Both the position numbers and the translations under genes were made by a program. Under the pieces are notes generated by a model. That model ran no database searches. It was given only the letters and a program-made list of their open reading frames with translations, and was not told the origin of the DNA. DNA of 64,000 bases from Candidatus Fermentithermobacillaceae bacterium. GTDB lineage: Bacteria > Bacillota > Sulfobacillia > Fermentithermobacillales > Fermentithermobacillaceae. The stretch spans positions 19,383 to 83,382 of the forward strand of contig DULO01000130.1 of the NCBI GenBank assembly GCA_012840345.1, in the 5' to 3' direction. Positions 6,532-45,466 of this stretch are shown here, piece after piece (the first letter of the stretch is position 1; each line of letters opens with the position of its first letter).

Positions 6532-6805
6532 GGACATCCTGTCCAAACCGGAGGAGGTTTCTGAACCCGAGTCTTTGGGCGACGCCGGGTTCGCGGAGAA
6601 CTTAAAACGCTTGGAAGCCATCGTGAAGTCCCTGGAGAGCGGCGAGCTTTCTCTTGAGGATTCTCTCAAGAAGTTTGAAGAAGGTATAAAACTTGCCAGA
6701 TACTTGGAATCTATCCTTGACCGGGCAGAGCGGAAGGTCGAGCAGATTCTGAATCCGGAGAAGTCCCGAGACTCGAAAGGTGAGGAAAGCGGCGGTGGAA
6801 TTTGA
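6521..6805 (+). CDS. xseB: Exodeoxyribonuclease VII small subunit
   Basis: 'FAENLKRLEAIVKSLESGELSLEDSLKKFEEGIKLARYLESILDRAERKVEQI' XseB signature. Confidence 0.92.
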   Translation: MSSEDILSKPEEVSEPESLGDAGFAENLKRLEAIVKSLESGELSLEDSLKKFEEGIKLARYLESILDRAERKVEQILNPEKSRDSKGEESGGGI

Positions 6806-7661
6806 GAAGCGCCTGGAGCGCTACAGGTTCCTTATCGATACGGCGATGCGGAAGTACTTTGAAAACATTGAGCCTTTCGCGCCCGCGCTTAAAGACGCCA
6901 TGGTCTACGCCGCCATTGGAGGCAAGAGGCTTAGGGGGGCCACTGTCCTGGCCGTCCACGAAGAACTCGGCGGGAACGTCGAAGACGCCATAGGCCTTAG
7001 CATCGCTATGGAAATGGTGCACGCGTATTCCCTCGTTCACGATGACCTTCCCTGCATGGACAACGACGACACCAGGAGAGGAAAACCCACTTGCCACCGG
7101 AAGTACGGCGAAGCCTTGGCGCTTTTGTGTGGGGACGCCTTGCTTACGGCCGCTTTTGAAGCCGCCGCCTCGTCGGGGAACCTCCCTGACTCAAGACGCC
7201 TTAGGGCGATACAGATCCTGGCCAACGCCGCGGGAGCAGCGGGCATGGTGGCGGGCCAAGTGCTAGACCTTGGACTGGACGGCGACCTGGCAGACGCCGG
7301 GAGCGTGGCCCGGATGTACAGGCTCAAGACCGGGAAGCTATTTGAGGCTTCGGCCCGGATGGGAGCCGTCGCGGCCGGCGCGCCCGACGACATCATTGAG
7401 GCTGCCGGTTCCTGGGGACTCTATTTCGGATACGCGTTTCAGATCGTAGACGATCTGGACGACATGGAAGCCGAAGAAGAGAAGACGACCCTGGCTCGGG
7501 TGACGTCGTGCAAAGAAGCCGGGGAAGAAGCGGAAAAGTCTCTTAGGGCAAGCCTTGAGGCCCTATCTCCATTCTCAGCGAAACCCAGTTTCCTGGAATC
7601 CCTATCCTCCCGTTACCTCGATTTGTTGTCCGGCCGAAACCTGCAAAAGTCTTCTGTGTAG
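6780..7661 (+). CDS. ispA: Polyprenyl synthetase (farnesyl/geranyl diphosphate synthase type)
   Basis: FARM 'SLVHDDLPCMDNDDTRRGKPTCHRKYGEALALLCGDALL' and SARM 'YAFQIVDDLDD' motifs. Confidence 0.93.
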   Translation: MRKAAVEFEKRLERYRFLIDTAMRKYFENIEPFAPALKDAMVYAAIGGKRLRGATVLAVHEELGGNVEDAIGLSIAMEMVHAYSLVHDDLPCMDNDDTRRGKPTCHRKYGEALALLCGDALLTAAFEAAASSGNLPDSRRLRAIQILANAAGAAGMVAGQVLDLGLDGDLADAGSVARMYRLKTGKLFEASARMGAVAAGAPDDIIEAAGSWGLYFGYAFQIVDDLDDMEAEEEKTTLARVTSCKEAGEEAEKSLRASLEALSPFSAKPSFLESLSSRYLDLLSGRNLQKSSV

Positions 7662-7683
7662 TCCCCAAGCGATGGTCCTCGAC

Positions 7684-7713
7684 TTGCCACAACCCCTCGT
7701 GAGCAGGTATAAT
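7684..7713 (+). promoter_or_regulatory. Sigma-A-type promoter candidate for the intergenic RNA
   Basis: TTGCCA (7684-7689), 18-nt spacer, perfect TATAAT (7708-7713). Confidence 0.65.
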
Positions 7714-7719
7714 GATGCG

Positions 7720-8242
7720 TGGCTCTCCGGGAGGGCGCAGTATTCTAGTGGGCTCTCCCGCTCCAAAGGCGGGGCTAAAAATCCGTCACGGGCCGGGCCG
7801 ACGACGCCCTGGAGGGGCCGGTTGCGCCCAGCTTCCGGCTTCTTTAGGGAGAAGGAAAAAAGGGAAACCTACAATGGCATGTAGGTCAGAACATCAAAAG
7901 CCCTTTTTTCGCGGGATCCGGATGCGGGTCCCTACGGCAAGTTTCTTGTCTGGCCTGCCTTGAGTGGCCGCGCAGGAAGGTTCCTCCTGAAAGCGCGGTT
8001 GCAATAGAGGCTAGGAGCGGGTGCCCTTGAGGAAATCTCCTAGACTGTCCTAGCCGGGCGTCTCGCGGGGTTGCGGTGTGAACTAAGTGGTGATCCAGCT
8101 CTGCAAAGGGTGACCTTGCAGGGTGGCCTTAAAGGGGAACCGCCTTTCGCGCAAGCGGAGGTTGGCCATCGGGAAAACCTGCTGGACCTCAAGTCACAAG
8201 ATTTACCGCGGACGCCGCCCCTCGGAGGCGGATTTTCCATTT
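7720..8242 (+). ncRNA. ole: OLE RNA (ornate, large, extremophilic RNA) candidate
   Basis: ~520 nt gap without plausible CDS, own promoter, many strong stems (e.g. GAAAAAAGGG 7855-7864 / CCCTTTTTTC 7901-7910 enclosing CCTACA/TGTAGG), and the ispA-RNA-oapA-dxs synteny known for OLE RNA; ends approximate. Confidence 0.85.
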
Positions 8243-8246
8243 ACCC

Positions 8247-8819
8247 ATGTCGCAAAGAAGAAAGCGCGGAAAGTCAGGTTTACTCCTGGAAGTCCTAGGG
8301 CTCGGCACAGGAGCCTTCCTCTTAAGTTTCGTCATGAACGCCTCTTTTGAAGGGGTATTCCGGGGCGTTTCCCCCAGAGTCGGTATACCTCTGGTATTAT
8401 CCGTGATCGGCTTAGGTATCTTAAGCGACGGATTGGGGCTTGCCAGCGCCCGGGCCAGCGAGAGCGCCCTTTTGTCTATGGCTTCCAAGAGAGTGCCCGG
8501 AGCCAAAGAGGCTGTCTGGTTCGTAAGGAACGCCGCGAGGGTTTCATCCGTCTTCAGTGATGTGTTGGGGGATGTCGCCGCGACGATATCCGGGGCCTTG
8601 GCCGCCGCTATTTCCCAAAACGTTCTGGGCCTATATCCCGGGGTAAGCGGTTTTCTACTGACGGGAGCCGCCGTCGGACTGGCCTCAGGCTTAAGCGTTG
8701 GCGGCAAAGCCCTGTTCAAACCGGTAGCTTTGAAGTACGCTGAGTCTATGATCCTGTTTCTCGGAAGAATCCGGTATTATGTGAACCGGGCTTTTGGGAG
8801 GACGAAGAGACAGAGATGA
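8247..8819 (+). CDS. oapA: OLE-associated protein A (OapA)-like membrane protein
   Basis: Hydrophobic ~190 aa multi-TM protein with 'SALLSMASKRVPGAKEAVWFVRNAARVSSVFSDVLGDVAATISGA' core, between OLE-like region and dxs. Confidence 0.82.
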   Translation: MSQRRKRGKSGLLLEVLGLGTGAFLLSFVMNASFEGVFRGVSPRVGIPLVLSVIGLGILSDGLGLASARASESALLSMASKRVPGAKEAVWFVRNAARVSSVFSDVLGDVAATISGALAAAISQNVLGLYPGVSGFLLTGAAVGLASGLSVGGKALFKPVALKYAESMILFLGRIRYYVNRAFGRTKRQR

Positions 8820-10708
8820 CCGTCAAACTGAGCGATGTAAAGTCTCCCGCGGATCTTCGCCGCATGTCTTTGGCGGAACTAAAAGCCTTGGCAAAGGAAA
8901 TACGCGAGAAGATAGTAGAGACCGTAGCGGCCAACGGCGGCCATTTGGCTTCGTCCCTAGGCGTAGTGGAGCTCACTTTGGCGCTCCATACAGTCTTCGA
9001 CACGCCGCAAGACAAGATAGTGTGGGACGTGGGGCATCAGAGTTACGCTCACAAGCTTGTCACGGGAAGGTACGACCGGTTCTCCACACTCAGGAAGTTT
9101 GGCGGCCTGTCCGGTTTTCCCAAGCGGCAGGAAAGCCCTTACGACGTCTACGACACCGGCCACGCCTCGGGTTCCATATCTTTTGCCCTTGGTCTCGCCA
9201 AGGCCAGAGATCTAAGAGGCGGAGACGAGAACATCGTTGTTGTGATCGGGGACGGCGCCCTTACGTCGGGTGTGGCGTTTGAGGGTCTAAACAACGCGGG
9301 CGAGCACCGCACAAGACTTATCGTCATCTTAAACGACAACTCCATGTCCATTTCAGAAAACGTGGGCGGCATTTCTTACTATCTCACCACGCTCAGGATG
9401 GCTCCACTCTATAGGTCCACCAAGGCCCGGTTTGAGAAGGTCCTTAGGACCATGCCCAACCTCGGGACGCGGGCTGTAAACCTGTTAAAGCGCCTTAAGG
9501 GAGGGCTTAAGCACTTCCTGTTCCCCGAAGCGTGGTTTGAGTCTTTTGGGTTTAGGTACTACGGTCCTATAGACGGCCACGATATCGAGGCGCTACAGAA
9601 GGTCCTTGGGGAAGCCAAGCACCTAAACGAGCCGGTCATAGTCCATGTGGTGACAAAGAAGGGCAAGGGCTATCCGCCCGCCGAGAACGAGCCCGAGAAG
9701 TACCACGGACCGGGTCCCTTTGACCCCGCCACAGGCACGATTCGCGTAAGTGAGGGGCCCCCGTATTGGAACAAGGTGTTCGGCGAGGCAGTGAAGCACT
9801 TCGCTTCGCAAGACAAGAGAGTGGTCGCCATAACAGCGGCCATGTCAGACGGGACGGGACTGGACGCGTTCAAGAAAGCTTTTCCCGACCGCTTCTTTGA
9901 CGTAGGGATAGCCGAAAGCCACGCGGTCACCTACGCGGCCGGATTAGCCCAGGGCGGGATGATTCCGGTCGTCGCCATATACTCCACTTTCCTCCAGAGG
10001 GCCTACGACCAAATCATTCAAGACGTCGCCCTGCAGAAGCTAAAGGTTGTGTTTGCCATTGACAGGGCAGGGATAGTCGGCGAGGACGGCGAAACCCATC
10101 ATGGTGAGTTCGACCTAAGCTATCTGCGCCCGGTACCGGGTATGACCGTGATGGCGCCCAAGGACGAGCGCGAGTTGGTGGACATGCTTTATACGGCGCT
10201 GAACCTTCCGGGACCCAGCGCCATAAGGTACCCGAGAGGACGAGCCACGGGCGTTCCCTACAAGGAGGCGTTGGAGGCACCGAGCCTCTTGGAAGTAGGG
10301 AAGGCCGAGGTGTTGGCGTTGGGCAGAGACGCCAACCTCGTCGCCATCGGAAGCATGGTGGTTCCGGCCTTAGAGTGCAGGGAACTCCTAAAACAAGAGG
10401 GCATTTCTTGCGGAGTTGTAAACGCCCGTTTCGTGAGTCCTTTGGACACCGAACTCATGGCGAGCCTTCTGCGTTCGGCTCCGCTTTTTGTGTTGGAGGA
10501 GAACGTTTCCACCGGGGGGCTCGGCGAGGCGGTTGAGGCAGTGGCCGCTTCCATGCCGTCGGCCTCACACGGTGTGTTCAAGATGGCCTTGCCGGTTGCC
10601 TTCCTGCCCCACGGCAGCCAGGAGGTCCTAAGGCAATCGGTCGGGTTGGACGCGAAGTCTATAGCAAAGAGGGTCATGGAGGCTATCGGGAGAAAAGATG
10701 ACCGTTGA
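8816..10708 (+). CDS. dxs: 1-deoxy-D-xylulose-5-phosphate synthase
   Basis: 'LASSLGVVELTLALHTVFDTPQDKIVWDVGHQSYAHKLVTGR', 'VVIGDGALTSGVAFEGLNNAG' TPP motif. Confidence 0.96.
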   Translation: MTVKLSDVKSPADLRRMSLAELKALAKEIREKIVETVAANGGHLASSLGVVELTLALHTVFDTPQDKIVWDVGHQSYAHKLVTGRYDRFSTLRKFGGLSGFPKRQESPYDVYDTGHASGSISFALGLAKARDLRGGDENIVVVIGDGALTSGVAFEGLNNAGEHRTRLIVILNDNSMSISENVGGISYYLTTLRMAPLYRSTKARFEKVLRTMPNLGTRAVNLLKRLKGGLKHFLFPEAWFESFGFRYYGPIDGHDIEALQKVLGEAKHLNEPVIVHVVTKKGKGYPPAENEPEKYHGPGPFDPATGTIRVSEGPPYWNKVFGEAVKHFASQDKRVVAITAAMSDGTGLDAFKKAFPDRFFDVGIAESHAVTYAAGLAQGGMIPVVAIYSTFLQRAYDQIIQDVALQKLKVVFAIDRAGIVGEDGETHHGEFDLSYLRPVPGMTVMAPKDERELVDMLYTALNLPGPSAIRYPRGRATGVPYKEALEAPSLLEVGKAEVLALGRDANLVAIGSMVVPALECRELLKQEGISCGVVNARFVSPLDTELMASLLRSAPLFVLEENVSTGGLGEAVEAVAASMPSASHGVFKMALPVAFLPHGSQEVLRQSVGLDAKSIAKRVMEAIGRKDDR

Positions 10709-45138: not shown

Positions 45139-45227
45139 GCCCTCGCCTCCAGTTTCGGTGTACGTTTTGAGTATTCCAAAGGACGGCCCTTACTAAACTA
45201 GGGACGACAATTGAACAGAGCGCGGCG

Positions 45228-45418
45228 TTCAGGTGCCCTCTTAGGGAGAATAGGGAAGTCCGGTGAGCGAACTACGGTCCCAGCGAACCAAAGTCGCGAA
45301 TCCGGCGCGGTGCCGCCACTGTAACCGGGGAGCCCCCCACAGCGTCCACTGGGCGTGATGCTCGGGAAGGAGTGGGAGCCAGGATCCGGGAGCCAGGAGA
45401 CCTGCCTGAACGCGTTGG
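45228..45418 (+). ncRNA. Cobalamin (AdoCbl) riboswitch
   Basis: AGGTGCC... GGGAA..CCGGTG...GGTCCC...'GCCGCCACTGTAACCGGGGAGC' B12-box and 'GAGCCAGGAGACCTGCC' elements; precedes btuF. Confidence 0.92.
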
Positions 45419-45466
45419 AACCTGACCTTCGAGCGAAAGGGGGGGACCTGGTGGTACGCTTGAGAG

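Follow-up and report, generated by a model that had tools for sequence, protein, structure and literature searches.

The window analysed here is a 64,000-nucleotide stretch of a contig (DULO01000130.1) from a Candidatus Fermentithermobacillales bacterium, a member of an uncultured order of thermophilic fermenters with genomes of 1.5–2.4 Mb. An operon in it reads xseA, xseB, ispA, a noncoding gap, oapA, dxs, nadK, argR and recN, followed by an S55 (SpoIVB) peptidase gene. The original prediction had placed an OLE RNA in this gap, in a gene order that is as found here with nadK additionally lying between dxs and argR. OLE RNA is a very large structured bacterial RNA whose biochemical role has been open since 2006. 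A search with the Rfam OLE model (RF01071, score cut-off 50 bits) returned a match at 7716–8237 on the forward strand with 288.1 bits (E 7.8e-81), spanning model positions 1–616 of 616, and the adjacency typical of RF01071 loci is present, with oapA next door within the isoprenoid/argR/recN cluster. The rest of the gap consists of promoter and leader (7684–7715) and a spacer (8238–8242) ahead of the oapA start codon (ATG, 8247). Its coding content amounts to short overlapping ORFs, with no long ORF fitting. The 7716–8237 sequence has a minimum free energy of -246.5 kcal/mol (z -4.66), a value equalled by 0 of 100 shuffles. With a strong model match, strong covariation among relatives and a noncoding gap, 7716–8237 is almost certainly a genuine OLE RNA of this bacterium, present as one copy in the source genome (2.36 Mb, 136 contigs).

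Positions of all features are collected in Table 1. The stems named in the original prediction were recovered: GAAAAAAGGG (7855–7864) pairs with CCCTTTTTTC (7901–7910) and encloses CCTACA (7868–7873) and TGTAGG (7880–7885); GGGATCC and GGGTCCC lie at exactly 7913–7919 and 7926–7932; and the CTGCAA/TTGCAG stem is present, although its quoted start was one base off, the true positions being 8101–8106 and 8116–8121. Neither Pfam nor NCBIfam gave a match to OapA, which was recognised through relatives directly beside OLE in genomes of the class. It is encoded in 14/14 OLE carriers of the order and in 101 of 154 class genomes, and is absent from all three non-carriers in the order. Elsewhere the window holds a cobalamin riboswitch (45214–45423, forward strand, 109 bits, E 2.1e-26).

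Table 1. Features of the OLE locus, in window coordinates
Feature	Position	Strand	Remarks
ispA	6780..7661	+	upstream neighbour of OLE
sigma-70-type promoter TTGCCA-N18-TATAAT	7684..7713	+	TTGCCA 7684-7689, TATAAT 7708-7713; 11/12 consensus matches
OLE RNA (RF01071)	7716..8237	+	522 nt; full-model match, single copy, covariation in 14 order members
P1 5' strand	7723..7736	+	pairs with 8217-8230; 11 pairs, 8 changed on both sides
P3/P3.1 5' strand	7750..7764	+	pairs with 8014-8026; 12 pairs, 10 changed on both sides
P4 hairpin with A-rich L4 (CUAAAAA)	7768..7787	+	14/14 class-conserved columns kept
J4a and J4a/5	7789..7806	+	lost across order; mean retention 0.43, 1/12 conserved columns kept
P5 with L5 GCCCA (7826-7830)	7808..7850	+	L5 is the kissing-loop partner of L6
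P6 with L6 AAUGGCAUG	7855..7910	+	two helices, 100% of cells paired; L6 GGCAU invariant in 14/14
J6/7, short P7 (7913-7932), potential short P8 (7937-7951)	7912..7956	+	class-conserved nucleotides mostly lost
truncated P9	7957..8011	+	retains basal stem and GGA/GAAA internal loop; lacks P9.2/P9.3 and the palindromic kissing loop
domain 2 (P11-P15)	8049..8206	+	59/64 class-conserved columns kept in at least 90% of order
terminator-like hairpin CCGCC-CCTCGGA-GGCGG-ATTTT	8215..8231	+	overlaps P1 3' strand, just 5' of oapA; marginal
oapA	8247..8819	+	190-aa membrane protein, four hydrophobic segments; OLE-associated protein A
dxs	8816..10708	+	downstream neighbour; TIGR00204, 785 bits

The near-consensus promoter that had been called at the start of the gap is the sole promoter-like site in 7500–8300, where 0.1 would be expected. 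In 13/13 order members examined, a TATAAT, TATAGT or TATACT box lies ~24–29 nt 5' of an AGTAT element. This conserved position of the -10 box would fit an OLE-specific transcript besides any polycistronic one. Many other Bacillota loci (L198–L277) also often carry a TATAAT-like -10 box, ~16–31 nt before the AGTAT element, which suggests that a dedicated OLE promoter may be widespread in Bacillota.

Distribution and conserved fold in the order

OLE is known from 2,822 Bacillota genomes, with two variants described (PMC11332333), and its presence in Fermentithermobacillales was therefore expected. We found it in 14 of 17 genomes of the order, spread over five genera, at lengths of 515–635 nt and at a similar score level (271–310 bits, vs. 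mostly 360–496 in the rest of the class). A closed genome exists for one member of the order, the fermentative thermophile Ca. Fermentithermobacillus carboniphilus Bu02, which came from a coal-fire site (PMC10215811). In our set, genome G009 is a single contig of 2,316,832 bases. In a scan for relatives of OapA, the closest named genomes were those of Candidatus Fermentithermobacillaceae; the source genome lies in that family too, though in a separate genus. Another genus of this family, g4 (G010, G011 and G012, at loci L278, L279 and L280), has neither OLE nor OapA, while its operon xseA-xseB-ispA-dxs-nadK-argR is otherwise intact, with an ispA-dxs spacing of 68–69 nt in two of the three genomes. 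Given this joint absence, OLE and oapA behave as one two-part module. Outside these groups, an OLE match of 424 nt (L113, G074:C75) lies close to the end of its contig, in a genome with an OapB match and no OapA match, and has probably been affected by assembly.

The consensus fold of the 14 OLE RNAs of the order comprises 152 pairs, with 97.4% of cells paired. Both sides have changed in 62 of these pairs, giving 247 double-changed cells compared with 81 ± 7 in shuffles and 30–58 when the structure was slid along the alignment. Among the best-supported helices are P1, P3/P3.1 (12 pairs), P12 and the hairpin at 8101–8121. The baseline for retention was a set of 42 OLE RNAs taken from other families in the class; outside the order, 210 columns reach a conservation of 95% or more. 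Within the order, these columns show a mean retention of 1.00 in P4, 0.96 in J5/6-P6, 0.96 in basal P9 and 0.97 in domain 2, but of 0.43 in J4a/5 and 0.51 in J6/7-P7-P8. Such conservation suggests that the OLE homologue is functional.

The retained parts include elements with assigned roles in other OLE RNAs. Domain 2 is not resolved in present OLE structures. It carries two GNRA hairpins here, one at 8101–8121 with a GUGA tetraloop and one at ~8142–8161 with a GCAA tetraloop, and both are kept in 14/14 carriers; sequential numbering of the helices points to the first as a candidate for P13, the OapB site. The P3/P3.1 helix corresponds to a 12-bp stem proposed as a membrane-crossing element (PMC12265935). 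In cryo-EM structures the OLE dimer is held by the palindromic tip of P9, plus P4, L5 and L6 (PMC12286853, PMC12265935), and the A-rich L4 loop forms the P4 contact (PMC12286853). The sequences of L4 and of the L5-L6 pair are kept in 14/14 carriers.

RNA modules lost across the order

That the RNA was somewhat short and of variant architecture, as first predicted, is borne out: the P9 arch, most of P7/P8 and the k-turn strand are missing, and the genome lacks an OapB gene. In other OLE RNAs, J4a/5 reads CACAUCGAUGAAG, which forms one strand of the k-turn for OapC, and in the order the UCGAUGAAG of this k-turn is lost as a block. Positions 84–85 (U, C) of the Rfam model, within the k-turn strand, are the residues of the Halalkalibacterium halodurans mutants U84 and C85, with which the need of OapC for the J4a/5 k-turn was demonstrated (PMC9723947). 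In place of J4a/5 stands a stretch able to pair with the P7/P8 joining region (7797–7800/7935–7938), the cells of this helix being paired in 52/56 cases in the order vs. 59/168 outside. Judged by covariation at the level of the alignment, this short helix apparently replaces the k-turn strand across the order; it does not occur in the window's own minimum-energy fold. The window alone among order members has GACGA at the place of the lost GAUGA.

The J6/7-P7-P8 region keeps only 2 of 22 conserved columns in at least 90% of the order, and its short P7 appears in the window's minimum-energy fold. In one genus (L010, L011 and L012, from G006, G007 and G005) P7 carries an insertion of ~60–110 nt, made of imperfect repeats resembling CCCGGATGAACGGT.

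P9 spans 22–24 nt in the order compared with ~62–72 nt in most other OLE RNAs, and the order's OLE alignment shows no conserved palindromic P9.3 kissing-loop tip. We scored this loss by the length of P9, since GGGCCC alone is an unsuitable marker when other palindromes occur. A shortened P9 is also found in a few unrelated lineages with an intact k-turn, so that loss of P9 and loss of the k-turn are separable. The variant architecture is fixed in the order, being shared by its 14 OLE carriers in 5 genera; each loss was probably a single event, so the high counts should not be read as many independent losses.

Protein partners and a proposed reduced OLE particle

OapB and OapC are essential for OLE in H. 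halodurans, the one model species. In members of the class, the gene that separates map from infA was identified as OapB, tied at E 1.1e-13 to PDB 7k9b (OLE-associated protein B). A profile built from an alignment of proteins in the map-infA gap matched 91 of the 154 class genomes and none of the 17 genomes of the order, a closed genome among them. Outside the order, 85 of 88 OLE carriers in the class have OapB; the three exceptions (G077, G125 and G153) are incomplete or fragmented genomes. Where oapB sits in others, map directly adjoins infA in the source genome, G009, G002 and G011. A Pfam KOW search carried to E 1 yielded mainly L24, NusG and weak matches in long frames. By profile search and gene order, OapB thus appears absent from the order, though a strongly diverged copy could lie elsewhere. 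We considered whether its loss was paired with loss of one GNRA hairpin of domain 2, but both are kept, the second being changed only in its closing base pair.

OapC, of the L7Ae family, is encoded once in every genome of the order, beside and upstream of rpsL where checked. Its motif reads G[TAS]KQ in 14/14 rpsL-linked homologues examined outside the order and has degenerated to G[AV][KR][AS] in 14/14 members of the source genome's family, the k-turn-reading GTKQ being GVKA in the source genome itself. Three genomes of family f2 keep GTRQ although their RNA has lost the k-turn strand. Protein bS21 is found in 15/17 order genomes, with one copy in the source genome.

Very probably, the locus encodes a functional OLE particle that has been reduced to an OapA-centred core. 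The RNA would most likely be transcribed both from its own promoter (7684–7713) and by read-through from ispA, fold into the core, and dimerise via the A-rich loop of P4 and via L5-L6. It would be held in the cell membrane by OapA, whose gene lies 9 nt downstream, with the P3/P3.1 stem placed at the membrane. By analogy with what has been shown for H. halodurans, the particle may help the cell adjust to metal-ion, cold and solvent stress. The order's particle would have shed OapB, the k-turn read by OapC and the P9 kissing-loop arch as accessory modules, leaving OapA, domain 2 and the P3–P6 core.

It is unlikely that the particle is instead canonical, with a diverged OapB encoded elsewhere and OapC bound to another k-turn, such that sequence has drifted and composition has not. 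Such a particle would account for the retention of both GNRA hairpins, one of them the OapB site, in 14/14 carriers, and for an OapC gene still standing upstream of rpsL; it sits poorly with an OapB profile that succeeds in 91 class genomes and in 0/17 of the order, closed genome included, with the yield of the KOW search, with the adjacency of map and infA, and with the degenerate OapC motif in the source genome's family.

We regard it as very improbable that the gap encodes no separate RNA and serves mainly as a cis-regulatory leader for oapA-dxs, in which the hairpin at 8215–8231 would be the attenuator. A terminator-like hairpin does overlap the 3' strand of P1 shortly before oapA, but the number of terminator-like sites is near chance (2 found vs. 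1.0 expected) and this one has no counterpart among relatives in the OLE alignment. The full OLE fold is moreover conserved far beyond the needs of a leader, and in H. halodurans OLE RNA works as a particle at the membrane (PMC12265935). That the gene is a decaying relic heading for loss, as the sister genus that lost OLE and oapA and the low scores relative to the rest of the class might suggest, is the least probable reading, given domain 2, P4, L5 and L6 loops that are almost invariant across 14 genomes and 5 genera, compensatory pair changes, and the retained promoter and oapA.

Taking the reduced particle further, we tentatively propose, at somewhat below even confidence, that Fermentithermobacillales carry a working OLE particle made up of OapA and an RNA in which the k-turn has been remodelled into an ordinary helix, while OapB, the docking of OapC and the P9 arch are all gone. 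If so, the essential activity would reside in domain 2 and the P3–P6 core, and a partner other than OapB would bind the conserved GNRA hairpin now assigned to it; retention of the OapB-attributed hairpins without OapB does suggest that these make some other contact. This free-living order retains the RNA and OapA but has lost OapB, the site where OapC docks and one bridge of the dimer; it thereby sets core parts apart from accessory ones and amounts to a natural experiment on what the particle needs. Full-length structure work may also be easier on an RNA that is shorter and has fewer partners, which matters because domain 2 is missing from present structures.

How does this particle compare with known OLE systems? 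It resembles that of H. halodurans in its full-length covariance model match, operon context, adjacent OapA, P1–P6 and domain 2 architecture, A-rich L4, and L5 and L6 loops. It differs in lacking the OapB gene, the J4a/5 k-turn strand, the P7/P8 sequence and the P9 arch with its kissing loop, and in length (522 nt vs. ~600 nt). Some clades, TANB77 and RF39 in particular, reportedly lack OapB and OapC (PMC11332333). Variant 1 OLE (TANB77 clade and others; PMC11332333) shares with the present RNA shortened P7, P8 and P9 and the lack of an OapB gene. However, variant 1 often has no P13 OapB site, whereas both domain 2 GNRA hairpins are kept here (8101–8121 being only a P13 candidate); an OapC gene is present here; the genomes are those of fermenters (1.5–2.4 Mb) and not of strongly reduced symbionts; and the main text of PMC11332333 does not describe loss of the k-turn strand for variant 1. 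Variant 2 (RF39 clade; PMC11332333) likewise has a reduced P7-P8 region, but it lacks P7 and P8 altogether, unlike the short P7 at 7913–7932 and the potential short P8 at 7937–7951. We found no description of an OLE system in which OapB is gone with both GNRA hairpins kept, and OapC is kept with its k-turn site and motif lost, without strong genome reduction, although one may already show in published supplementary data.

Two neighbouring CNNM-domain proteins of the MpfA-like superfamily (G000:C17:27921-29783 and counterparts), candidates for MpfA itself, are encoded by almost every member of the source genome's family despite OLE. OLE and MpfA are reportedly anticorrelated. As a substitute for OLE, MpfA-type proteins were rejected, CNNM proteins being found alike in OLE carriers and non-carriers.
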